32,036 nt of DNA from a virus (IMGVR_UViG_3300032315_001089:1-32036); one strand, 5' to 3'. Shown: positions 3,277 through 31,166, numbered from the stretch's first letter. Made by a program: numbers and translations. Notes: generated from the letters alone by a model not told the origin.

Positions 3277-6200
3277 ATTTTTCCTTCAACCTGTTTATTA
3301 TCTTTAGTTATAATAGTGTAACCAATACTTTCTTCTTGTATTGATACTGACTTTGGTCCATTGGTCAAAGCAGCCATTGCCATTGGAGAAGCATTACTTG
3401 TTTCATAAGTAATCAAATCATTGTTCGACCTATCAATAAACGGGAAATCATTGCCTAAAATAGTCACAGAATTCTCCACATATTGAATTAACTCATAACC
3501 AACAGAAGTGCCACCACTTAAAATCGTACCCCAGTCTTCAAATCTTCCAGAAATATACAAATAATCCGTTCCACTAATATTTACTTCAGAAACTATTGAA
3601 TAAAAATATGTAGAATTTATTTTTATTAAATAATTTTCTTTAAAAGTACTATCACGCAAAGCATTAGGATCATTTGGATCTGTAAATAATGGAAATGTCA
3701 AAGGTTTAGTAATAAGCATCTTTGCACAATTCAAATTGCCTGTATTATAAACAAGCCTTTGTAAAACTTTTCCACTTATTCCTGCCTGATCGCCACCATC
3801 ATATCCATCAATATAAAACTGATTGTCTACTTCTGGATATCCATCAATATAATATTGCGCCAAAGAAGAATCAAAGTAGAAATAATTGTTTTGGCTAAAA
3901 GTAAAATATGTTTGTATATTGTCGATTCCTGATCCTGAATCTACAACAACTCTGCCTCTTTTTTCAACATCATAAATTCCTTCAACCGATTCGACAATTA
4001 TATTACCATTTTGGTCTAAAATCTTATAACTCAATCCAGTGATCGATGTGTTACTCAATGTGCCATCATTGACCAAAATCAACTTATTATTAAATGTATT
4101 GGCAATTTCATATTCAAGTCCTGTTGAAACTATTTCAACTTTCCAAGCTGCTATCGCATTTCCATTGCTAACATCATGAACTGTCTTAATCGGATAATAC
4201 AAATAATCAACAGAACTGTCTGATATAGAAAAAACATTGTCTTGATAAACATCAAAATTTGTGTCTGCAAGAGTAACATTTGACAATATAAAAGTAAAAT
4301 CTGTTTGATTAAGAGGCTCGGTGATAGCTCCTAAAACTTCAACAATATTGCCTGTTGCATTTTGAACAGTATAATTACCACTATTAGCATGAGGAGATAA
4401 AATTTGCAAAAAAGTATTAGCTGGGTTATCAGTAATGCCTATTGTTTCTAAATTCTGAAAAGAACAAAACAATACAATATTTCGATTAAATCCTGTTGTA
4501 GTTCCAGATTCAATGCTAGTTGAACTTGCTAAAGCATTTCTTAAAACAGGAGTAATTATGTCGGAATAAGGATTAATGTTTCTTTTGAAAACATCGCTTA
4601 CTTCACCACTGATAAGAAACTCACTACCATTATATTTTATAAGTATCTGCCAACTTTCTTCTGCTGGCAACATGTAATCTTGTAAATAACCATTAAATTG
4701 CAAAGTATGCAAAATCGCATGGAAAGGAATATATTCAGCAATAATTTCCTGTGCTTCAGTCAATCTAATGTTTGATAAATCTTGTATTGTCAATTCTACG
4801 TTAAATCTAGAGCTAATCGTATTACGACAAGGCTCAACAAAGTTTTTGTCTATATCTTTTGGATTGTAACTGTCTCTTAACGATCCATTATACTCATCCA
4901 TGTTATAAGCTTGTTCAGAATAAGGAAATTCTGTTCTTATTTTCCCGAAAATAACAGGATCATAAAATGGATTTTTCACATTTATAATCATGTCAAACAA
5001 AGGATCTGCTTCTTCAATTACATGAGTATTCCAGTCCTTTTTAGGATATTCTATGTATCTTGTATTTCTGGTGTCAGCCAAAGGTAATGATAGAATGTAA
5101 TTATGAATTTGAATGGATTCATAATTTGGAAATTCTTTAATTTGATAGTTAATTTTTAAAATTGATCCTAAAGTGAGTGGATCACCTACATATTTCATGT
5201 AAGAAACGCCACTTGATGTATAAATTTCTATATTGCTCAAACTTACCGAATCGTATGACCCAATTACAATGTTTTCACCAACCACAGTAGCATAAGCAAT
5301 TTCTAAATCAAAATAATTGTTATTAACATCAAGGCTAACTTTTTCTAGTTGGAAAATGTTATCGCCAAGGTATGAAAAACTTTCTGTAAACGAATATTCT
5401 GTTCCTACCTGCCAAAGCTGAATAAATTTATTTAAAACAATTCCAGCATCATTTAAAGCTTCTTCTAAAGCTTTCATTGTTCCTTTGCGCTTGTTTAATG
5501 GGACAGCTTTCTTTATTTGCTTGCGCCATCTAGTTGGATCAGTACTTCTTAACTTCAAATTAAACAAATTAGCCAAATAAACTAACAATTGTTCTTGTAA
5601 AACATTTGCATCTAATAAATCAATTATTTGATTTACAAGATTCTCTATGTCTCTGAAACCAATATTAAGAGCTTGATTAAGTTTATCTAGAATTTCAGAT
5701 GTTTTATCACCTTCTGAATAAGTACTCTTATACATTTCAGGAAGATATCTTGTAAGCAAATCGTAATATTTATTTTCAGGTGTTCTGTGTGTTGGATTGC
5801 TTGTATAAGAAGCAATGTCGCTTGCTAGGTAAAAGCCTAAATGAGCACTAATAGTGTCACCAGATGGATTAGGTTTCCATTTATAGCAAATAAAGTAATC
5901 ACCTTCTCTTACGCCTAAAGCATCCCAATAAAAAGAAAATCTTCCATAAGCAAATTCTTCATTAGCAATTTTTTGAATTGGAGAATCTGTATTTGGTTGA
6001 CCTCTTACCCACAAAGGTTCAGTAGCACTACCTCGTTGATAAACAATGTTTGAACTTTGATAATAAAATGTATTTGTAACAATTGTTGATTGCCAATCTG
6101 CAAGAGCATTGTTTGCTAACCTAATGTTTTCCTCATTTGGATCATTGCAGGCTATATTTTTTAACACATAATATCTTGCTTCTAAATTTGTTTGAGAAGT

Positions 6201-16522: not shown

Positions 16523-17017
16523 TCACTTTTCCATCATGTTTTCAACAGTTGTATTTACTAGCCCTGCAATCTGATTTCTAACATTTTCTCTAATTGCTTC
16601 CGCCTCTTGCGGATCTATTGACCTAGTAACTGTCATTGATTTAACAATTAAATCACAATCCAAAACCTTTAAACCTTTTATTCCATTTCTCTTATACGTT
16701 CTGTATGCTTTAACTATGTATTGATATGGTTTTACATTTTGATAATTAAAACCCGGACGACAACCATTAAGCTTATCTTTCTGTAATACTTGCTTTATTT
16801 CGTTGAATGTAAGATAATGAAGATTAACACCATGTAAATAATTTGCGCTGACATAAGTCAAAATAACTAAAGGATAAACATCATTTTTTGCAAACATATA
16901 TTGAAAAGTAACTAAACTACCACTAGCAATTGTCTTAAAACTAGGACCATATTGATTCGCACCAACACTTCTTGATATGACATCTTTAAAAAGTTTGCCA
17001 TAATCACTACGAGCCAT
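16523..17017 (-). CDS. Conserved-looking structural protein with FPLV/NLHYL-type motif
   Basis: 164 residues, basic. The core reads Y-P-L-V-I-L-T then G-V-N-L-H-Y-L-T-F. I recall a similar F-P-L-V ... G-x-N-L-H-Y-L pattern in proteins of marine T4-like phages that are annotated variously as structural or DNA-end-associated. I cannot decide between these. No catalytic motif or membrane helix is visible. It is eight bases upstream of the tape measure gene, and its start overlaps the end of the nucleotidyltransferase by 11 bases, so it belongs to the tail operon. Confidence 0.55.
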   Translation of the reverse strand: MARSDYGKLFKDVISRSVGANQYGPSFKTIASGSLVTFQYMFAKNDVYPLVILTYVSANYLHGVNLHYLTFNEIKQVLQKDKLNGCRPGFNYQNVKPYQYIVKAYRTYKRNGIKGLKVLDCDLIVKSMTVTRSIDPQEAEAIRENVRNQIAGLVNTTVENMMEK

Positions 17018-18398
17018 AGTTCATCTTTTCTCTTATAGCTTTGTCCAAAAGATTTTTTCTAGTAGCATCCATTTCATCATAATCAGGATTCTTACCTAAA
17101 AATTTAATATATCTTGGATTTGGCACTTTTTGTCCCAAATCATCTTCTATGTATTTTTTTGTTACGCCTGAATAATCTTGCTTAAACACCTTGTAATACA
17201 AATCACCTTTTCCGAACAATTTAAGAAAATCATAAATTTTTGAATGTGCTAATCTTGTTGGCATAGTCAACAAATCTCTGATTAAATCAGTTTTATGTGT
17301 ATTGCCAGAACACCAGACAGCAAGTTTCATAAACTTTCCAATTTCGTCAACATCACCTTTTGTATAGCCTTGAGTTAACAAAAGATTTTTTATCATTTCA
17401 ACATTGTTAGGATGTAAGATATAAGCAGTAACCAATATCTTATTGTTCGGCAAATCACTTATAATATTAGAAAAATTACAATTAGGAAACATATCGTGAA
17501 GCAATGCTGCTTGTTGAAGGTTTCTCAAGTATTGTGTTGGATTCACATCTGTATTTTCAATGGCATTGACATAATATTTCTTTAAAATCTTTTGATCCAA
17601 ATCTTTGTCTTTGACACTTTGCTTTATCATTGACAAAAATCTTTCTGGTATTTTTTTATCCACAGAAAATCTACAACATATGTCTGCCAATCTGAATGGC
17701 AAATAACGATCTCTTTTAAATGTCATTGTTGGATCTTCTACGGTTGATATTTCTTCTACTTTTAGATCATGTGCGCCACCAACAGGATCTAAAAGTTCGG
17801 CATTGTCACCATCTGAATTTTTTAATTTAAGATAAAGCGAATTAATAGTAATGTCTCTTGTATACGCATCTTGTTCTATATTATGAACAAATTTTGCCAC
17901 ATCTGGAACCAAATGACGATTCTTGTTATTTCTATTCAAAGTAGCAATATGCGCTTTTTGATGACCTCTCTGTACAGTAACTTCCATTGGATGATGTTGA
18001 GCATCATGGCGAGAAATATAATAAACCAATTCTTTATCATCAAATTGATGATCGCCAGTTACCTTTTTAAACGGTGATTCTGAATTTTTTAAAATTAATA
18101 TAATTTCATCTGGCGTAGCATCTGTCACTAAATCAAAATTTTTGAAAGTTTTGCCTTTAAGATGATCTCTTAACGCTCCGCCTGTCAAGAACAAATTCTT
18201 TCTTTTTAAAGTTGGATGTACCAAGCCTTTGCTTTTATCAAGAGTAGTGTAGCCTATTTTTACTTTATCGCTATCTTCAAAGGCTTCAATGATTGGCTTT
18301 AAAAGAGAATTCAAAGTAGAAGTTACTTTGAGTGGCTTAAAATTAATGACACCTTTAGTGTCTTTAAGTCTTATTTTTGAAAGTAGTTCGTCACTCAT
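17007..18398 (-). CDS. CCA-adding enzyme / poly(A) polymerase-like nucleotidyltransferase, active site altered
   Basis: 463 residues. The N-terminal half follows the class II tRNA nucleotidyltransferase/poly(A) polymerase head. It has G-G-A-L-R-D-H-L-K-G-K (residues 73-83), the catalytic strand N-F-D-L-V-T (87-92), a third acidic strand M-E-V-T (138-141), R-D-I-T-I-N-S (181-187) and L-D-P-V-G-G (203-208). In the family the catalytic strand is D-x-D; here the first Asp is Asn87 (AAT codon checked), while Asp89 and Glu139 remain. The E-D-x-x-R nucleotide-binding motif is also degenerate (K-R-D-R-Y-L-P-F-R). The protein may be inactive, altered in specificity or a structural derivative. It lies inside the tail operon; the start overlaps the coiled-coil gene by four bases. 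Confidence 0.8.
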   Translation of the reverse strand: MSDELLSKIRLKDTKGVINFKPLKVTSTLNSLLKPIIEAFEDSDKVKIGYTTLDKSKGLVHPTLKRKNLFLTGGALRDHLKGKTFKNFDLVTDATPDEIILILKNSESPFKKVTGDHQFDDKELVYYISRHDAQHHPMEVTVQRGHQKAHIATLNRNNKNRHLVPDVAKFVHNIEQDAYTRDITINSLYLKLKNSDGDNAELLDPVGGAHDLKVEEISTVEDPTMTFKRDRYLPFRLADICCRFSVDKKIPERFLSMIKQSVKDKDLDQKILKKYYVNAIENTDVNPTQYLRNLQQAALLHDMFPNCNFSNIISDLPNNKILVTAYILHPNNVEMIKNLLLTQGYTKGDVDEIGKFMKLAVWCSGNTHKTDLIRDLLTMPTRLAHSKIYDFLKLFGKGDLYYKVFKQDYSGVTKKYIEDDLGQKVPNPRYIKFLGKNPDYDEMDATRKNLLDKAIREKMNYGS

Positions 18399-20581: not shown

Positions 20582-21085
20582 ATGATATTATTTAACGAGT
20601 ATGTGAATCGTCATCACTTCATGTCAAAAAAAAGACTTCGTCTTTTGATGGCTGCTTTGCAAAAAGATGGATTAAGAACAGACGATTACACTCATGATGA
20701 ATACGAACCTTATGTTTTCGTTTATGCTTACCCAATACCAACAACTTTTGAAGGCGTAAGATTCTATATGCATGGAGACATCCTTGCATTCAAAACACAG
20801 AAAAAACCAGAAACACAGCCTTATGGTGAAGCATATGAGCTTGATTTACAAACAATGTTGATGGATATCTTTGAAAACGAAAAAGATAAAAGTGAAAAGC
20901 ATATTACAAAAGTTCTTGTAAACTTGATCGGAAGAGAAATAAGAGATCATTTCAAGAAAGAAAAAGCAGCAGAACAAAATATGCTTACAGGACAAGTTGG
21001 AGACGATAAAAAGAACGCTGGTCAAATTGTTATTAAAAATAATGGCACCGATTATTCAAACACAATCTTTAGCAAGTGGAATTGA
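20582..21085 (+). CDS. Hypothetical protein
   Basis: 167 residues, mixed charge. It begins with M-I-L-F-N-E-Y, has a basic segment S-K-K-R-L-R-L-L-M, a central Y-E-P-Y-V-F-V-Y-A-Y-P-I-P stretch and a charged helical second half ending in a polar tail. No domain is recognised. AAGGA lies suitably before the ATG. A 60-base AT-rich gap separates it from the gene before it, so it could have its own promoter, but I see no convincing -35/-10 pair. Confidence 0.6.
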   Translation: MILFNEYVNRHHFMSKKRLRLLMAALQKDGLRTDDYTHDEYEPYVFVYAYPIPTTFEGVRFYMHGDILAFKTQKKPETQPYGEAYELDLQTMLMDIFENEKDKSEKHITKVLVNLIGREIRDHFKKEKAAEQNMLTGQVGDDKKNAGQIVIKNNGTDYSNTIFSKWN

Positions 21086-24318: not shown

Positions 24319-25335
24319 ATGCATATTAATTATGTTTTAAATCTTGGGATTTCAAAGAAATCATATACAGGTTCAGGTTCTTTTGAACTGGCTGGAAGCG
24401 CCATTGTCAATCTAGATTTATCTTATATTGGATCGGGTAGCTTTGAATTAGCTGGATCTGGACAAGCATTGCAAAAGTTTTTGTATACTGCAAGTGGATC
24501 TTTTGAACTAGTTGGAACCAATAATCCAACAATACCTGCCAAAGTATTCAAGGATATTAAATTTAATATCAATCAAGTTGGTACAACATACGATAATAAA
24601 CAATATACAGTTTATCAAATTCAAGGAACAGGAAAAAATCCTCAATATGTCGCAACTAATACTTTGCAATCAGATTTGTTTAACAATGACAATTTGTTTA
24701 CTGATTCTGAAATTGCCTCAATTCTTGCAAACAAAAATTCAAATGAAATCACAAAATATGAAAACATAATATCTTATATCAATAACAAATTAAGCACAGC
24801 GCCACTTCCAATAGACAATGAAGTATTAACAAATATTAAGTTTAACTTAAAACAAACATTTGTCAACATTTTAAATCAAAACAAGCAGGTAATATCTGTT
24901 TTAGGTTTAGAGAAAAATCCTGAATATGTTAGTGATTCACAAATTGCAGATGGAGCGAATGCTTTAACCAGTCCGGAAAACACAGAATACACTATAAACA
25001 AAAATAATAATTTAATTGTTGTTTATGAAGACAAGTTAGATGTAATTAACAACAAGCTTGCCGGGATGACACCACCAACTATAGTTCCAGTGAAAACTAA
25101 TACAAAATTTTACATTAAACAAGATGGTTTTAACGATTTGAATCAAGCTGTAAATATACAAAGTGTTATTGGAATAACATCACAGATATCTTATGATTCG
25201 AATGAAGGTGTGTATAAAGAGGATCAATTGCTTGATGATAGTGAAGCGGCTTCATATTTTTCTCAAAAATACGATAATTTGCTAGATAAATATAACGCTA
25301 AGTTAGCAGAAATAAATGGGAGGCTCAATGCCTAG
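24319..25335 (+). CDS. Tandem-repeat structural protein with YxGSGSFEL motifs
   Basis: 338 residues with two repeat systems. First, three copies of a 20-residue unit with Y16, Y36 and Y56 in register (Y-T-G-S-G-S-F-E-L-A-G-S is the clearest). Second, three diverged copies of about 90 residues, beginning K-F-N-I-N-Q (81), K-F-N-L-K-Q (174) and K-F-Y-I-K-Q (263). Each of these ends in a helix of the type Y-x3-I-x2-I-N-N-K-L. This looks like a stalk carrying three similar modules. It follows its neighbour by three bases without an obvious ribosome site, and its last eight bases overlap the next gene. A virion surface role is inferred. Confidence 0.65.
   Translation: MHINYVLNLGISKKSYTGSGSFELAGSAIVNLDLSYIGSGSFELAGSGQALQKFLYTASGSFELVGTNNPTIPAKVFKDIKFNINQVGTTYDNKQYTVYQIQGTGKNPQYVATNTLQSDLFNNDNLFTDSEIASILANKNSNEITKYENIISYINNKLSTAPLPIDNEVLTNIKFNLKQTFVNILNQNKQVISVLGLEKNPEYVSDSQIADGANALTSPENTEYTINKNNNLIVVYEDKLDVINNKLAGMTPPTIVPVKTNTKFYIKQDGFNDLNQAVNIQSVIGITSQISYDSNEGVYKEDQLLDDSEAASYFSQKYDNLLDKYNAKLAEINGRLNA
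24364..24516 (+). repeat. Three 60-base coding repeats (YxGSGSFEL units)
   Basis: Three consecutive units with a 60-base period encode the Y-x-G/A-S-G-S-F-E-L core. Codons differ between copies while the amino acids are kept, indicating that the protein sequence is under selection rather than recently duplicated. A fourth, related copy (Y-T-G-S-G-K-F-Q-L-G) opens the next gene at about 25337. Confidence 0.8.
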
Positions 25336-25666
25336 TTATACAGGAAGTGGCAAGTTTCAACTTGGGGCTTGCGCTAAATTTTGGAAAACAATTAATTATC
25401 CACACAAATGGAGTCCGGGTGACATTCTATTTTCAAAACAAAAAGCATTGCTAGGTCAGTTTGAAAAAGTTGCTATCAAGCAAGTAAGACTAATAATGAA
25501 TGCTGGTACTGCTGGCAAAATGATTTTTATTTATGTCGATACATTCAACTCGTTATGGAATGAATATGATTTGATTCAAGAATACGATGCATTATTGATT
25601 GCAAAAATGTATTATGAAAATAAAATTGCAGAGACAACAAAAGCAAATTATCCGTGTGTTCTCTAA
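25328..25666 (+). CDS. Small structural protein sharing the GSGxFxL motif
   Basis: 112 residues from ATG 25328, chosen because GGGAGG lies 4 bases upstream; an ATG at 25316 would add four residues. It begins M-P-S-Y-T-G-S-G-K-F-Q-L-G-A-C, a clear copy of the motif repeated in the preceding protein. Then come K-W-S-P-G-D-I-L-F-S-K-Q-K, V-A-I-K-Q-V-R-L-I and Y-V-D-T-F-N-S-L-W-N-E-Y-D-L-I, and a C-terminal helix. The two genes overlap by eight bases, so they are coupled and probably assemble together. No family name can be given. Confidence 0.65.
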   Translation: MPSYTGSGKFQLGACAKFWKTINYPHKWSPGDILFSKQKALLGQFEKVAIKQVRLIMNAGTAGKMIFIYVDTFNSLWNEYDLIQEYDALLIAKMYYENKIAETTKANYPCVL

Positions 25667-25678
25667 ACTTGAATGATT

Positions 25679-26773
25679 TTATAAATTGTTTATCAAATCG
25701 TCTATTGTCTTTATTTCTAACTTATCCCAGATATTTTTGTTTAGAAATATGTAATCACATGGGTCAGCACCTATTGGCAGGTAATTACCTCTACATCTAT
25801 TCCCAAAGACATATGTCGGTATGCCACATAGTAAAGAATATGATTTCAACCATGTATCAGCAGAAATAACTTTTTCAGCAGAATTTATTGTTTTCAAAAG
25901 TAATCCCAAATCTGATGCAGACATAATTTTGTTGCCATATATTCTTTTTGATGTCATGAACCAATCTTTGGAAGAAATTGGTTTCCATTTATAAAAATCT
26001 TTATCAGACTCTGATCCAGTTGTAACAACTGTATATCCTAAATCAATAAACTTTTTGACTAAAAAGTTGTATTCAAAAATTTCTAAATATCTTTGTCTAT
26101 CATAATTTTTCATTGATCCGCTAGGCTGCATAACTATTACTTTTTCACCAACAAATAAAGGATTTTTTCCAAATCTTTCTATCCAATCAGTTTTAAATAC
26201 CATTCTGTTTTTGTAATATTCTATATCTCTGCACCAATCATTAAAATCCAAACCTCTGGCTAAGTGAGCACTTGGTTTGAAATTAATTTTTTGAATCATG
26301 TAATTGTTGATTGTATTGGCGTATTTGGTGCCCATTAGATTTCTTGAAACAAAATTTTCTAATTTAAAAAATTCAAGTAACTCTTTGCAAAATTCCATGC
26401 TGCAACTATTTGCGTAAAATACTATTTGTGCTTTAGTGTCTTTATACGCATTTGCAATCAAAAGAATAAGATCGCCAGCACCACCAAAATTTAAATACCA
26501 GTTTTTGTTTTGGTTTAGGAAATCAATCGCAGCCTTAACAGAATTATCACCAAAATTATCTTCTAAAGCTCTTTTTTTCTGCGCAGTTATTTGATCTCTT
26601 TTTATAGCCGTTTTTATTACATTCTTATTAAAATAAACAGGCTCTTTACTTGACGGCATAATCGCCTTGTTTAGATCTTCAACATTTTTATTTTGTTTAT
26701 ATTTATTCTCAAATTGCGCCTGACGAATCAGGCGCTCTACGTCTTCTCTTTTTGTATTGCTTTTTTGATTCAT
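25679..26773 (-). CDS. Glycosyltransferase, GT9/heptosyltransferase-like
   Basis: 364 residues. After an 85-90 residue charged extension comes F-G-G-A-G-D-L-I-L-L-I-A-N-A-Y, the nucleotide-sugar-type Rossmann entry of GT9 enzymes (G-x-G-D). The second domain has V-I-V-M-Q-P-S-G-S, then F-I-D-L-G-Y-T-V-V-T-T-G-S-E-S-D, and I-S-A-D-T-W-L-K-S-Y-S-L-L-C-G-I-P-T-Y-V-F-G. These correspond to the donor-binding half of GT-B enzymes (family pattern G-S, D-S-x-x-x-H-x-A-x-x-x-x-P). The usual H is replaced around W-L-K-S-Y. It probably transfers a sugar to an unknown acceptor. Its ATG overlaps the upstream stop (TAATG), and it converges with the structural gene ending at 25666. Confidence 0.75.
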   Translation of the reverse strand: MNQKSNTKREDVERLIRQAQFENKYKQNKNVEDLNKAIMPSSKEPVYFNKNVIKTAIKRDQITAQKKRALEDNFGDNSVKAAIDFLNQNKNWYLNFGGAGDLILLIANAYKDTKAQIVFYANSCSMEFCKELLEFFKLENFVSRNLMGTKYANTINNYMIQKINFKPSAHLARGLDFNDWCRDIEYYKNRMVFKTDWIERFGKNPLFVGEKVIVMQPSGSMKNYDRQRYLEIFEYNFLVKKFIDLGYTVVTTGSESDKDFYKWKPISSKDWFMTSKRIYGNKIMSASDLGLLLKTINSAEKVISADTWLKSYSLLCGIPTYVFGNRCRGNYLPIGADPCDYIFLNKNIWDKLEIKTIDDLINNL

Positions 26774-27114
26774 TAGATGGATTCAGATTCAGCTTTAAAC
26801 ATATCCTTAGCGTGAAGAAGCTTCTTCCTTAAAAGTCTGACAACTGTTCTTTGTTCGCTAGGCTTGTTGAACTGCCTTATAAATGTGTTAACAAGATCTT
26901 CAATTTGCTTCAAATTGTAAGTCTTCTTTTGTCCATATGTAGTTGCCATGCTGGCATATTTTCCTGCTGTACCCAAACCAGTAGACTTAAATGATTTTGA
27001 CGCATCTAAATCATCTGTATCTTCATCATCTAAGTCATCAATATTACTTTTTAATGGCATTTCAATTTTACCATCTTCGATTGCTTCGTTATACCATTGA
27101 TTAAATTTTTTCAT
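26773..27114 (-). CDS. Small protein with capsid-targeting-like N-terminus
   Basis: 113 residues. It begins M-K-K-F-N-Q-W-Y-N-E-A, which matches the layout of the T4 internal-protein leader M-K-T-Y-Q-E-F-I-A-E-A residue for residue in character. An acidic stretch (D-D-L-D-D-E-D-T-D-D-L) follows. The second half is basic and helical (R-T-V-V-R-L-L-R-K-K-L-L-H), a composition suited to DNA or RNA binding. AGGAG lies 9 bases before ATG. The leader comparison is inference from pattern only. Confidence 0.65.
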   Translation of the reverse strand: MKKFNQWYNEAIEDGKIEMPLKSNIDDLDDEDTDDLDASKSFKSTGLGTAGKYASMATTYGQKKTYNLKQIEDLVNTFIRQFNKPSEQRTVVRLLRKKLLHAKDMFKAESESI

Positions 27115-27130
27115 TGTTGTGAAACTCCTA

Positions 27131-27517
27131 TTATTTGTCTTGATCTAATTCATCATCAATCTCATTAATCTCATCATTTTCATCATTTTCATCATCTAAA
27201 TTGTTATTGACTTCTAAACGATTCAACAAAGTTCTTAAGTCTGTTTTTAGCTTGCTCAATTGTGTCGGATCATTGAAATCATAAATATCTTTTATAATAT
27301 CAGCTAGTACAATTCTTTGTTGACCTCTATTATTCTTTATTTTTTCGGCACCACCATACTTGTCAACCATGCCTTTGAATCTGCCAGCAGCTCTTGAAAC
27401 AGTGCTTGAAACAGTGCCGGGCATTGAACGGAAATCAAAAGCACTATCGCTTTCTTGTCCTTCTGATTCTTGATAAGAATTACTACGGAAGCTCAACCAC
27501 TCATTGAAATTTTTCAT
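27131..27517 (-). CDS. Small protein with MxxFxxW N-terminus and acidic tail
   Basis: 128 residues. It begins M-K-N-F-N-E-W-L-S-F, sharing the leader pattern of its neighbours. The middle is basic (S-R-A-A-G-R-F-K-G, N-N-R-G-Q-Q-R-I-V-L) and the last 25 residues are nearly all D, E, N and I. AAGGAG is 4 bases before ATG. It overlaps the gene upstream by four bases and is paired in layout with the next gene (basic helix plus acidic run, in opposite order). No known domain is recognised. Confidence 0.65.
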   Translation of the reverse strand: MKNFNEWLSFRSNSYQESEGQESDSAFDFRSMPGTVSSTVSRAAGRFKGMVDKYGGAEKIKNNRGQQRIVLADIIKDIYDFNDPTQLSKLKTDLRTLLNRLEVNNNLDDENDENDEINEIDDELDQDK

Positions 27518-27834
27518 GTATCTCCTTCATAATCATCAACGCTAACAATGCGGCGTTTAGTTGGTCTTTCTGGAAAGTCTTCTTCAATATCAGAGTATTT
27601 AGTCAGCGCATTGTTAATTTTATTACGCCAAGTTGCTACTTTTTGTTGATTTATATCAAGCAATGCTGCAAAACCTCGACCATCGCCTAATAAACGCATT
27701 AGGTCATCCCAAAAATCTTCACCGCCGATATCAATACCTCTCGATATCAAATCGGCGGTTTCCTCTTCTTTGCGTCTTTGCTTTTCTTCTCTGAAATTTT
27801 TTATGTTTTCGTTTAAACTAGCAAAACTTGGCAT
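27514..27834 (-). CDS. Small charged helical protein
   Basis: 106 residues from ATG 27834, chosen because AAAGGAAAG sits just upstream. A further in-frame ATG at 27876 falls in the terminator hairpin and lacks a site. It begins M-P-S-F-A-S-L-N-E-N-I-K-N-F, a weaker version of the M-x-x-F leader. A K/R/E-rich helix (R-E-E-K-Q-R-R-K-E-E-E) follows, then G-G-E-D-F-W-D-D-L-M-R-L-L-G. The protein is polar throughout. Function unknown; it is four-base coupled to the following gene. Confidence 0.6.
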   Translation of the reverse strand: MPSFASLNENIKNFREEKQRRKEEETADLISRGIDIGGEDFWDDLMRLLGDGRGFAALLDINQQKVATWRNKINNALTKYSDIEEDFPERPTKRRIVSVDDYEGDT

Positions 27835-27849
27835 TTTCTTTCCTTTTAA

Positions 27850-27873
27850 AAAATTATGCGGATTTAGTCCGCA
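27850..27873 (-). terminator. Intrinsic terminator after the 27880-28200 gene
   Basis: On the minus strand TGCGGA pairs with TCCGCA across a CTAAA loop (27857-27873) and is followed by TAATTTTTT. It lies 6 bases past the stop of the gene at 27880 and just before the ribosome site of the next gene, so it probably makes the small upstream gene a separately controlled unit with read-through to those below. Confidence 0.75.
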
Positions 27874-27879
27874 CAATGA

Positions 27880-28200
27880 TCAAACCCAACTCTCGCTAAC
27901 AACAGTCAAAACATCGTTTGCTGTGCCAGACGCATATGTTCTCTTAAGATATAAAGCGTTCAAACCATAAGCTGTAAATGTATTGCTGTTTTTACCAGCA
28001 ATATTGCCGCCAACGCCAGTATTTGAATAGCCAGTAACGCCAGCACCCAAAGTTGGCAACCAAGTGGTTCTTGTATTAACCTGAGAAGCAGATTCAGTAA
28101 CAGTCTCGTTACCTACTAAATTTATATTGTAAGGTAAAGAAGAACTTTCTTTATTAGCAAGATTTATTGAAAAAACAATTGTAGGATTTGGATTAGCCAT
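27880..28200 (-). CDS. Small beta-rich, Ser/Thr/Gly/Asn-rich protein
   Basis: 106 residues, no cysteines, hardly any charge in the middle, with many Asn, Thr, Ser and Gly (G-A-G-V-T-G-Y-S-N-T-G-V-G-G-N-I-A-G). It is quite unlike the charged proteins around it and resembles small decoration or fibre subunits. AAGGAG is 6 bases before ATG, a strong site, and a good terminator follows, both of which suggest high expression. No family is recognised. Confidence 0.65.
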   Translation of the reverse strand: MANPNPTIVFSINLANKESSSLPYNINLVGNETVTESASQVNTRTTWLPTLGAGVTGYSNTGVGGNIAGKNSNTFTAYGLNALYLKRTYASGTANDVLTVVSESWV

Positions 28201-28240
28201 TTTTACTCCTTATTAATTTATTGACCTTTACGAATATTAT

Positions 28241-29419
28241 CTATTGCATTCCTAAATCTTTTTCTATGAGATCATATAAATTTAATAATGTTTGATTAAA
28301 ATTATTTGGGTTTTCTTCTATATCATTTGAATTTAGGTTTATACCTTTAGATTTTGCATAAGAATACAAATTCATCTTATCTATCTTGCCAATATTGTCC
28401 CAAAAAACTGTATTTCCTTTTTTAGCAAGGCTTACATTGTCATAAAGATTTTTTAGAGTATTTGCATCAAATTTATTTTTGTTAATTTGTTGCCCAACAG
28501 GTTGTTTAGGTTCATATATATTAGATTGTTGTGTCGAAGCTTGTTTAGTTTTTAATAATTTTTGCTTCAAGGCTTTTAATCTATCTGTTTTGTAGTCTTC
28601 TATTTTTTCAGCTTCATTAACGACATTTGGACTGAGTTTAGATGAACTTTGCATTCTTTGTGCTGCTGTGTCCACCGCTGATATGATTGCATCCATTTTA
28701 TTTGGATCTTCTACTAAGTGCTCCCACACTGCTTCCTGTTCACGAGTTCTTCTCATCCCCCCTCCTGCTTGTGCCATTTTATAATAAAAATGATAATCAC
28801 CATCGAGTTTACGTTGTTTCTCTCTGTCATTAAATTTGAAATTGCGAGCAACATCTTCCATTATTTCTCTTCTTTTACACCATATATTCATGTAAGAAAA
28901 ATCTGTATCATAATTGCTAGACCAATCAGCAAACATATCTGGCGTGATTCCTAATTTTTCTTCTAGTTCGTTTGCTTTGTACATGCTTTCTGAAACTTTT
29001 TTAGCAGCTAAACTAATATCCTCTATCAACGATGAAAATTGTCCTTTTTCAGTTTGATTCGCAGCGGCTGCTAACTTGCCTAAATATCTCATGTATTCTT
29101 TAGTAAATCCAACTGGAACTTCACCGGGCTTATTAGGTTGAGAAGCTGTATTACCACCCATAGGTTTAGGCTGCATTGGTTGTCCGCCACCACCACCTTG
29201 TCTTTGCTGTAACCTTTGTTGTAATCTATCAGCTGCTGCTTGAGCATTATCTTGATTTTGTTGCATTGGAGTGCCTCCTTGTCCACCAGCTCTTTTTTGC
29301 AGTCTTTGTCTTAATATTTCAGCTGCTGATTGAGCAGGTGCATTTTGCTGGATTGGAGCATCTTGCTCAAACAAATATTCAGGATATTTTCTTGCCAACC
29401 AATTGCTAAAATCACTCAT
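28241..29419 (-). CDS. Protein with MxxFxxW...PEYLFE leader, Gln/Gly-rich N-terminus
   Basis: 392 residues. The first 18 are M-S-D-F-S-N-W-L-A-R-K-Y-P-E-Y-L-F-E, nearly repeated at the start of the protein at 31166. Residues 25-100 are Q/A/G/R-rich with duplicated Q-R-L-Q-K/Q-R segments separated by G-G-Q-G-G and G-G-G-G-G. The body from about 105 is helical, with a basic middle (W-C-K-R-R-E-I-M, R-K-L-D-G-D-Y-H) and a helical C-terminus. L-F-E would fit the T4 prohead protease consensus (L/I-x-E). A head-internal protein is proposed, not shown. Confidence 0.65.
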   Translation of the reverse strand: MSDFSNWLARKYPEYLFEQDAPIQQNAPAQSAAEILRQRLQKRAGGQGGTPMQQNQDNAQAAADRLQQRLQQRQGGGGGQPMQPKPMGGNTASQPNKPGEVPVGFTKEYMRYLGKLAAAANQTEKGQFSSLIEDISLAAKKVSESMYKANELEEKLGITPDMFADWSSNYDTDFSYMNIWCKRREIMEDVARNFKFNDREKQRKLDGDYHFYYKMAQAGGGMRRTREQEAVWEHLVEDPNKMDAIISAVDTAAQRMQSSSKLSPNVVNEAEKIEDYKTDRLKALKQKLLKTKQASTQQSNIYEPKQPVGQQINKNKFDANTLKNLYDNVSLAKKGNTVFWDNIGKIDKMNLYSYAKSKGINLNSNDIEENPNNFNQTLLNLYDLIEKDLGMQ

Positions 29420-29441
29420 TTTTCAACATCCTTTTCTAATA

Positions 29442-29633
29442 TCATTTCTTAAAGTATTTAGTTTTTTTCTTACAATTTTTCCCTAAAAATTTACAATCAG
29501 CTTTACCATCAACATTTATTGTATGCGCTTCTACTTCGCCATATTTACTTTTGGCTCCAGCACTTTGTAGAATAGCATCATTGGTATGACTACCAACAAC
29601 AGGACCACCAGCCCAATCTAAAAATGTTAACAT
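29442..29633 (-). CDS. Short protein with MxxFxxW N-terminus
   Basis: 63 residues. It begins M-L-T-F-L-D-W-A-G-G-P-V-V-G-S-H-T-N-D-A and ends in a basic tail with two cysteines (C-K-F-L-G-K-N-C-K-K-K-T-K). The M-x-x-F-x-x-W start matches the neighbours, but the following G-G-P-V differs. No ribosome site is visible; TAAATA lies 4 bases before the ATG. It lies 7 bases after the upstream gene. The coding call rests on its tight fit in the run and on the shared start. Confidence 0.5.
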   Translation of the reverse strand: MLTFLDWAGGPVVGSHTNDAILQSAGAKSKYGEVEAHTINVDGKADCKFLGKNCKKKTKYFKK

Positions 29634-29640
29634 AATTTAT

Positions 29641-30243
29641 TTAGACTTTTACAAACAAATTATTACTAATTACATTGTAATTTCTTTTTTTCAATTCAGC
29701 AGCTTGCTTTTTGTTGGTCATTATAACAACAGATGAACTTCTAATCTTATCTATTAATTTGTAATTAACATCATCTTTAAAATCAAAAAACACATATGAA
29801 TCGTGATTATCAAATGTTTTTAAAGCATTTTCATTAGTTTCACAGACAATAAAAGAATTTTTCATTCTAGCAGATATCATCTTTATGTTGTTGATGTTTT
29901 CATCAATCGCCAGCTTAGTAACTACACCTTTAGTCAACTTGGATTTGTTTTCAAGATAAAACTTTAACGAATCATCACATATTTCTTTTGGTTTGTTGAA
30001 TCCATATTTTTTTATATAATCTGTGAAAATTTCTGGCTTATCTCTCATCTTTCTCAACAAATTACAATACTTTTCACAACTGCAATGAACTATTTCTTCG
30101 TCCTTTTTTTCTTCTGGTAAATATAAATTTTCAGAAAAGTTAAATAAAATAAATTCTGGTTTCTTTAAGATTTCTTTTATTTGCTCGTTTTGCTTCTTGT
30201 TGATTTTCTTAATCTTGTTTCTGAATACATTTTTTATAAACAT
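29641..30243 (-). CDS. Hypothetical basic protein
   Basis: 200 residues. A very basic N-terminus (F-R-N-K-I-K-K-I-N-K-K-Q-N) is followed by H-C-S-C-E-K-Y-C, which might bind a metal, and helices. The C-terminal 80 residues alternate strands and helices (S-F-I-V-C-E-T-N-E, S-Y-V-F-F-D-F-K-D, S-S-V-V-I-M-T-N-K-K-Q-A-A-E-L), as in small Rossmann-like or nuclease folds. I cannot assign it. It starts 5 bases after the zinc-ribbon gene and is probably co-transcribed. Confidence 0.55.
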   Translation of the reverse strand: MFIKNVFRNKIKKINKKQNEQIKEILKKPEFILFNFSENLYLPEEKKDEEIVHCSCEKYCNLLRKMRDKPEIFTDYIKKYGFNKPKEICDDSLKFYLENKSKLTKGVVTKLAIDENINNIKMISARMKNSFIVCETNENALKTFDNHDSYVFFDFKDDVNYKLIDKIRSSSVVIMTNKKQAAELKKRNYNVISNNLFVKV

Positions 30244-30248
30244 AAAGC

Positions 30249-30437
30249 CTACTTAGTTGGATCGTGAATAACTTTTTTGCATGCGTCACATACAACCTTG
30301 TATTCTCCGTAACCTCTTTTTGACCCTTGCCAAAAAAATTTACCTTCTTCTTTGTCTTTGCAACAATCAACGCATTTGGGAGACATTCTCTGTCTCCCAT
30401 TGTCGTCAATTACCTCAAAATAACAATCTTCTTCCAT
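30249..30437 (-). CDS. Zinc-ribbon mini-protein
   Basis: 62 residues with two C-x2-C knuckles: K-C-V-D-C at about 21-25 and V-C-D-A-C at about 49-53, the latter followed by K-K-V-I-H. Between them lies F-F-W-Q-G-S-K-R-G-Y-G. This makes a single zinc ribbon with almost no other sequence. Such mini-proteins act as nucleic-acid-binding or protein-binding adaptors in phages. A different frame over 30209-30409 is open but has no Cys pattern. It begins after a 72-base gap and may head a sub-operon. Confidence 0.75.
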   Translation of the reverse strand: MEEDCYFEVIDDNGRQRMSPKCVDCCKDKEEGKFFWQGSKRGYGEYKVVCDACKKVIHDPTK

Positions 30438-30440
30438 TAG

Positions 30441-30463
30441 TATAAAACAGTTATTGTTTTATA
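30441..30463. repeat. 9-bp A/T-rich inverted repeat before the zinc-ribbon gene
   Basis: TATAAAACA (30441-30449) and TGTTTTATA (30455-30463) can pair around GTTAT. The stem is 3 bases upstream of the minus-strand ATG at 30437. It could be an operator or a leader hairpin covering the start region; no T-run argues for a terminator. The remaining bases to 30509 show nothing further. Confidence 0.5.
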
Positions 30464-30509
30464 AAAATTTTAGATATTATGCTTGTTACTATTAGTAGGT
30501 GTCCAAATT

Positions 30510-31166
30510 TTATCTAGGTGGAAATTGTTTAGTTGCTGCATCAGCACGGTTGATAAGTTTACCAAGTTGCCTCTGATGTGGCGTTTTTGTGAGTTTTTCT
30601 AATTCTTCTCTCACGCTAGGCATAGACACAGTATTCATAAGTTCTGATGCTAACTGATATGGTATGATATCATCATCAAGTATTCCATCGCTAATAGCAA
30701 ATACGATGTCAGCTATCTCATCTTGATTTGCATTCCTCAAATCTCCTTTCAAATCATCTTTGATAAATTGTTTAATACGATTTTGTTTTTGTTGAACTGA
30801 AATATTTGAACCCAATAAAGCTGATATATCTAATTGCTGTGGTTCTCTTCGGTTATCTGCTTGATCTACTGTTAATGGAGAAACATCATCCGGTAATACT
30901 TTTCCTGTAACTGGGTCCATATTTGGAATTGTCCTGTTTGCTTGGGTGTTCCCTGATGTATACCCTTGGGTGTAATTTCTACTTACTGGCGCATATGATT
31001 GTCTTCTAGTAACAACTTGTCTGCTAGGTCTAGGAGCAAAAAGTGGTCTTCTGCCCATTCTTCTACCAAAAGTTTCTTCAATCAATTCAGAATTTTGTTC
31101 GGCAAATGCACTCTCAAACAAATATTCTGGATCTCTTTGATTCAACCATTCTAAAAATGTTTCCAT
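30510..31166 (-). CDS. Protein with MxxFxxW...PEYLFE leader, Arg/Gln-rich
   Basis: 218 residues. It begins M-E-T-F-L-E-W-L-N-Q-R-D-P-E-Y-L-F-E-S, sharing M-x2-F-x2-W-L-x4-P-E-Y-L-F-E with the 392-residue protein at 28241-29419. Residues 30-75 are Arg-rich (F-G-R-R-M-G-R-R-P-L-F-A-P-R-P-S-R) and disordered-looking; the C-terminal 110 residues are helical. AGGAT lies 6 bases before ATG. An Arg-rich protein with a removable leader would suit packaging with DNA in the head. No domain is recognised. Confidence 0.65.
   Translation of the reverse strand: METFLEWLNQRDPEYLFESAFAEQNSELIEETFGRRMGRRPLFAPRPSRQVVTRRQSYAPVSRNYTQGYTSGNTQANRTIPNMDPVTGKVLPDDVSPLTVDQADNRREPQQLDISALLGSNISVQQKQNRIKQFIKDDLKGDLRNANQDEIADIVFAISDGILDDDIIPYQLASELMNTVSMPSVREELEKLTKTPHQRQLGKLINRADAATKQFPPR

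Follow-up and report, generated by a model that had tools for sequence, protein, structure and literature searches.

The window analysed here (IMGVR_UViG_3300032315_001089:1-32036) is a 32 kb IMG/VR fragment of huge-myovirus kin in which five minus-strand open reading frames (ORFs) share an N-terminal leader of the form M-x-x-F-x-x-W. The five ORFs were confirmed, with starts at 27114, 27517, 29419, 29633 and 31166, and their N-termini read, in that order, MKKFNQW, MKNFNEW, MSDFSNW, MLTFLDW and METFLEW, exactly as stated in the original prediction, which took them for a candidate capsid-targeting leader. Several of the five ATGs are preceded by purine-rich sequence. The window also encodes a contractile-tail module comprising several kinds of baseplate wedge proteins, among others, and its gp6-like protein has 273 relatives in IMG/VR, several of them on contigs of 180-340 kb, and also matches the 595 kb phage LR756511.1 (43% identity). 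Pfam and PHROGs searches of the window block yielded no trusted match.

The first carrier of the leader (26773-27114) is a small protein of 113 amino acids matching no known family, whose leader (MKKFNQWYNE followed by A, residues 1-10, 27085-27114) scores 19.0 with the profile described below. The second (27131-27517, 128 amino acids) opens with MKNFNEWLSF (27488-27517, profile score 21.5), a leader also present in the relatives G005 and G011. A low-confidence model of its family consists of a short N-terminal helix, a low-confidence linker and a helical body. The positional relatives of the 26773 gene all keep W7 and, with one exception, F4; when the positional relatives of both genes are aligned (eight sequences), F4 and W7 are the sole invariant columns, and adding the LR756511.1 sequence, which has Y4, leaves W7 alone invariant. 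The third carrier (28241-29419, 392 amino acids), for which no relatives were detected, is an extra gene, the homologues of its flanking genes being directly adjacent in G005 and G011; its leader, MSDFSNWLARKYPEYLFE followed by QD (29366-29419), ends in a canonical L-F-E site at residue 18. The fourth (29442-29633, 63 amino acids) has the least typical leader of the five (MLTFLDWAGG, 29604-29633) and is conserved in G005, G011 and G019, F4 and W7 being invariant across four homologues. The fifth (30510-31166, 218 amino acids) has the leader METFLEWLNQRDPEYLFE followed by SA (31113-31166), which again has a canonical L-F-E site, at residue 18. Neither IMG/VR nor 33 related records contained a close homologue of the 28241 protein or of the 30510 protein, phage records likewise contained no homologue of 28241, and the phage record collection gave no match to the window DNA between 20 and 32 kb or to the longest carrier.

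To evaluate how unusual these starts are, whole or large parts of five large relatives (G019, 180 kb; G021, 323 kb; G024, 254 kb; G030, 340 kb; and LR756511.1) were analysed together with smaller contigs, ORFs being called by a simple longest-ORF scheme; given the start errors of this scheme the counts are probably slightly low, the leader lying at an internal ATG in some relatives. In the window, 5 of the 36 called ORFs start with the pattern when 0.03 would be expected from internal sequence. An excess was found in every large relative: 13 against 0.14 expected in G019, 9 against 0.27 in G021, 6 against 0.24 in G024, 4 against 0.38 in G030 and 19 against 0.94 in LR756511.1. Summed over the five, F4..W7 occurs 51 times and F3..W6 22 times (1.9 expected in each case), whereas the other distances from F4 to W are close to expectation. 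Internal methionines are nearly free of the pattern (2 of 976 in G019, against 13 of 230 starts). The leader signal is thus restricted to the protein start and to a three-residue spacing. Profiles learned from some genomes and scored on others led to the same result: 35 of 230 genes were retrieved in G019 when about 1 was expected from shuffled or internal controls, and 36 of 1078 in LR756511.1 when 3 to 4 were expected. Nor is the pattern equally common among all proteins of this phage, the outcome that the original prediction had named as refuting it: in the window it is found in none of the 16 ORFs below 20.5 kb and in 5 of the 10 beyond 26.7 kb, and contigs spanning mostly the tail module have zero or very few leader starts.

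Alignment of 122 carriers gives the consensus MxxFxxWLxE with a mean column identity of 3%: the carriers share the leader, yet their mature parts are unrelated. Residue frequencies in each column of 84 non-redundant F..W starts, compared with the same positions in other proteins, extend this to MK(T/N/S)Fx(E/Q)WLxE, with K2 in 46% of the starts (background 14%), E or Q6 in 54% (11%), L or I8 in 71% (20%) and E10 in 23% (8%); residue 3 is T, N or S in 68%, well above other proteins. F4 is encoded by TTT and TTC in nearly equal numbers (27 and 22) and L8 by many codons. Because the residues persist through synonymous changes, in genomes ranging from 36 to 56% GC, selection acts on the peptide rather than on the DNA. 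No enrichment of the T4 late-promoter-like TATAAATA was detected upstream of carriers. Could the likeness nonetheless reflect chance, composition or recent duplication? Some true paralogues do occur in G017 and G019. In the window, the earlier claim that the remainder of each protein is different stands for the protein bodies, which are unrelated, and has to be amended for the 28241 and 30510 proteins, which resemble each other over their first 45 residues (blastp E ~2e-4) and have FxxWLxxxxPEYLFE in common, so that these two leaders may share a common origin. As a general explanation, however, chance or duplication is untenable because of the spacing and internal-methionine counts and the held-out profiles, and unrelated bodies and synonymous codon variety speak against it as well; we consider it extremely improbable.

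The closest known counterpart is the capsid targeting sequence (CTS) of the T4 internal head proteins IPI, IPII and IPIII (MKTYQEFIAE before A; MKTFKEF...TITE before A). In IPIII the CTS comprises ten residues, mutations at positions 4 and 7 mainly affecting targeting and those at 8 and 10 processing (PMC9026906); F4, W7, L8 and E10 are among the enriched positions of the leader. Both are N-terminal elements of about 10 to 19 residues on otherwise unrelated mature proteins, with aromatic residues at positions 4 and 7 and with K2, T3, E6, L or I8 and E10, while T4 has F7 where W7 is found here. The spacing and character that the original prediction had likened to the T4 leader thus agree residue by residue. 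A profile was built solely from huge-phage leaders, F or Y then being allowed at the aromatic positions in the knowledge of T4. At a score of at least 10, the cut-off used for T4, the positive control, and for the other phages, it picked 4 of 255 T4 ORFs, namely IPI, IPII, IPIII and gp61.1. Elsewhere it picked 1 of 189 ORFs in SPO1, 3 in P-SSM2 and 1 in HTVC008M, the last two being T4-type marine phages; in phiKZ, the negative control, it picked none of 355, and the leader is not enriched there. The prohead protease gp21 is present in T4, P-SSM2 and HTVC008M, and a PF03420 match is absent from phiKZ and SPO1. T4 gp61.1 (MKTFKEFIKED; NC_000866 18966-19130, L393) scores alongside the three internal proteins and, judging from this N-terminus, is possibly an unrecognised T4 head protein.

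Most of the large relatives also encode head machinery of the T4 type. Pfam identified both gp21 (PF03420) and the capsid protein gp23 (PF07068) in G019, G021, G024 and LR756511.1, and G030 gave a partial gp23 and no gp21 match. The head genes of G021 are ordered as a 595 amino-acid gene, gp21, a 298 amino-acid gene (290009-290905) and gp23; by position, the first would be the portal and the third a gp22-like core protein. Carriers at 284295, 285407, 286997 and 294104 flank this gp21-gp23 cluster. gp21 cleaves after L/I-x-E (PMC9026906), and this motif lies within residues 8-31 in 48 of 84 carriers compared to 24% of other proteins (P 1.3e-10); within residues 9-29 it was found in 35 carriers against 20 in shuffles (0 of 500). 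In the window it is canonical near the leader in two of the five proteins, 28241 and 30510. In the 26773 leader a T4-like cut after E10 is conceivable, Y-N-E being a non-canonical near form.

We therefore regard it as quite probable that these proteins share an address tag at the N-terminus, of the T4 CTS type but with W7 in place of F7 and employed on a much larger scale. Packaging, core binding, cleavage and ejection of the tagged proteins are what we infer by analogy with T4. While the prohead assembles, a short helix at the N-terminus would bind to the forming core through its F4/W7 face, so that very different proteins would be trapped inside before the shell closes. A T4-type gp21 would then free the cargo in many cases by cutting after an L/I-x-E that lies at residue 10 or a little further on; the mature proteins would reside in the head beside the DNA, available for ejection into the host.

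Several observations weigh against this interpretation. The window fragment does not extend to the head genes, none of which was identified in it, gp21 and gp23 being seen in relatives only. L/I-x-E is missing from residues 8-31 in 36 of the 84 carriers, among them three of the window's five, and leader cleavage is therefore not general. Carriers make up about 15% of the G019 genes, whereas T4 is known to have just a small number of internal proteins, and enzyme carriers such as tRNA nucleotidyltransferase could act in the cell instead. Some aromatic matches are not tags, as exemplified by the window gene 20582-21085 (MILFNEYV), which belongs to a family conserved in all relatives, with F4 invariant in 11 homologues and mostly Y or F at position 7: it was rejected as a sixth carrier, the model placing residues 4-28 within a confidently folded helix.

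The leader might alternatively form a short amphipathic helix that targets proteins to the membrane, the tail or a replication compartment, its likeness to the T4 CTS being convergent. The helix predicted at low confidence for the 27131 family would suit such a role, and so would the numerous carriers that are enzymes or that have no L/I-x-E. It would leave unexplained, however, that the CTS is matched in kind at residues 2, 3, 4, 6, 7, 8 and 10, that the profile retrieves the T4 internal head proteins, that L/I-x-E is enriched, and that gp21 occurs in four of the five large genomes whereas phiKZ has neither a PF03420 match nor the leader. We consider targeting to another compartment improbable.

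If the leader is a packaging tag, the carriers with supported domains indicate what may be packaged. They include a P-loop kinase (G021 145754), a C39 peptidase (LR756511.1 429897), a Nudix protein (G019 51235), a tRNA-ligase-type phosphodiesterase (LR756511.1 411779), a ParB-like protein (G024 55246), ankyrin proteins (G019 2161 and 42656) and a HAD protein of RNA-repair type with an F..Y leader (LR756511.1 582920). In G030, a protein of 450 amino acids (206179-207531; L112:6179-7531) carries the leader MRFSFRKWLEAE and matches SAM lyase (PF23780, E 6.8e-12) in its C-terminal part, making it a candidate head-delivered anti-restriction enzyme. The leader of a SNF2-type helicase (G021 225763) is weak (score 9.2). 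Identification of carriers with Y-H-x-T or F-H-G-S stretches as ADP-ribosyltransferases was not supported; a different line of argument has been put forward for the packaging of Nudix and ADP-ribosyltransferase enzymes into the heads of myoviruses (PMC9503650). As a variant of the packaging interpretation, and not exclusive of it, the tag could be mainly structural, with carriers that build the core or condense DNA and stay in the head. Many carriers are small proteins in which no enzyme domain was recognised, and T4 IPIII itself influences head assembly (PMC9026906); a C39 peptidase, a SAM lyase, a Nudix protein, a kinase and a phosphodiesterase are nevertheless ill-suited as structural components. 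A mainly structural role is thus possible, though we rather doubt it.

The modularity of the tag speaks for the packaging interpretation. Cargo genes vary at matching sites of close relatives: the window and G005, for example, hold different leader-bearing genes just in front of the 30249-30437 gene and its homologue. Untagged relatives exist for both the G021 kinase and the LR756511.1 HAD protein. A cargo island in G019 (42656-59206, L138) spans 21 consecutive genes, of which 16, lying on both strands, are tagged; these include the Nudix protein and an ankyrin-repeat protein, of which G019 2161 is a second copy. Clustering of carriers is strong in G019, weak in LR756511.1 and not found in G021, G024 or G030, and carriers do not differ from other genes in being accessory. 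Two more carriers lie in G005 (L082, 3410-3824), near 3410 on the minus strand and 3651 on the plus strand, with likely starts at internal ATGs.

Other genes of the window deserve mention. The neighbour gene 27514-27834 (minus strand, MPSFASLNEN...) belongs to a family that retains F4 and not W7, and it is doubtful that its N-terminus is a degenerate leader. The predicted fold of the 20582 product gave no significant viral match. Downstream of the carriers, 25679-26773 encodes a conserved protein of 364 amino acids without a Pfam match, which by eye looks like a glycosyltransferase, and two adjacent proteins in 24319-25666 contain repeated segments of the YxGSGSFELAG type. Within the tail module, the tRNA nucleotidyltransferase gene (17007-18398) adjoins a gene (16523-17017) that matches the DNA end protector family; relatives of the nucleotidyltransferase have a leader-like start in some cases and lack it in others.

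Head-packaged proteins with N-terminal signals are known from several phages. T4 itself encodes a handful of CTS carriers, whereas five occur in the 32 kb window and about 35 in the 180 kb G019; here, in addition, enzymes are among the cargo, a cargo island exists, the cleavage site is frequently later or missing, and the leaders are known from sequence alone. The T4 ADP-ribosyltransferase Alt is, like the proposed cargo, an enzyme that enters the head by an N-terminal propeptide and is ejected, but its leader is not picked by the profile and no ADP-ribosyltransferase was confirmed among the carriers. In P1, N-terminal residues send the anti-restriction protein DarB to the capsid (PMC9024508); unlike here, no sequence consensus was reported for the Dar proteins, and a separate T4-like scaffold is apparently absent (PMC9024508). 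The giant phages phiKZ and SPN3US also have inner-head proteins whose propeptides are removed by a prohead protease and which are ejected (PMC5694885), but several SPN3US propeptides exceed 100 residues and the F..W leader is absent from phiKZ (0 of 355 ORFs). We found no earlier report of this leader in the open-access literature, of which coverage was partial.

The leader extends beyond these genomes. The exact MKTFxEWL coding pattern was found in 108 IMG/VR stretches compared to 18 for an F/W-swapped control that is itself not neutral, carriers also occurring at its loci; several stretches are rich in carriers (e.g. L304, 5 of 9 genes). It is tempting to propose that, in a clade of huge T4-type phages, one portable tag serves as a general head-loading system whose cargo proteins number in the dozens in each genome, candidate enzymes of anti-defence and RNA repair among them. 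Such cargo would be gained and swapped in cassette form and delivered together with the DNA, in effect a virion 'secretome' readable from sequence; we give this broader proposal even chances. Head-carried phage proteins are able to act ahead of phage gene expression and are hard to spot by sequence. If the leader is a true packaging tag, candidate head cargo could be listed from the sequences of uncultivated huge phages, many orphan proteins would acquire a testable location, and the T4 CTS, which T4 uses on a small number of internal proteins, would be extended to a large cargo set whose members can be exchanged.

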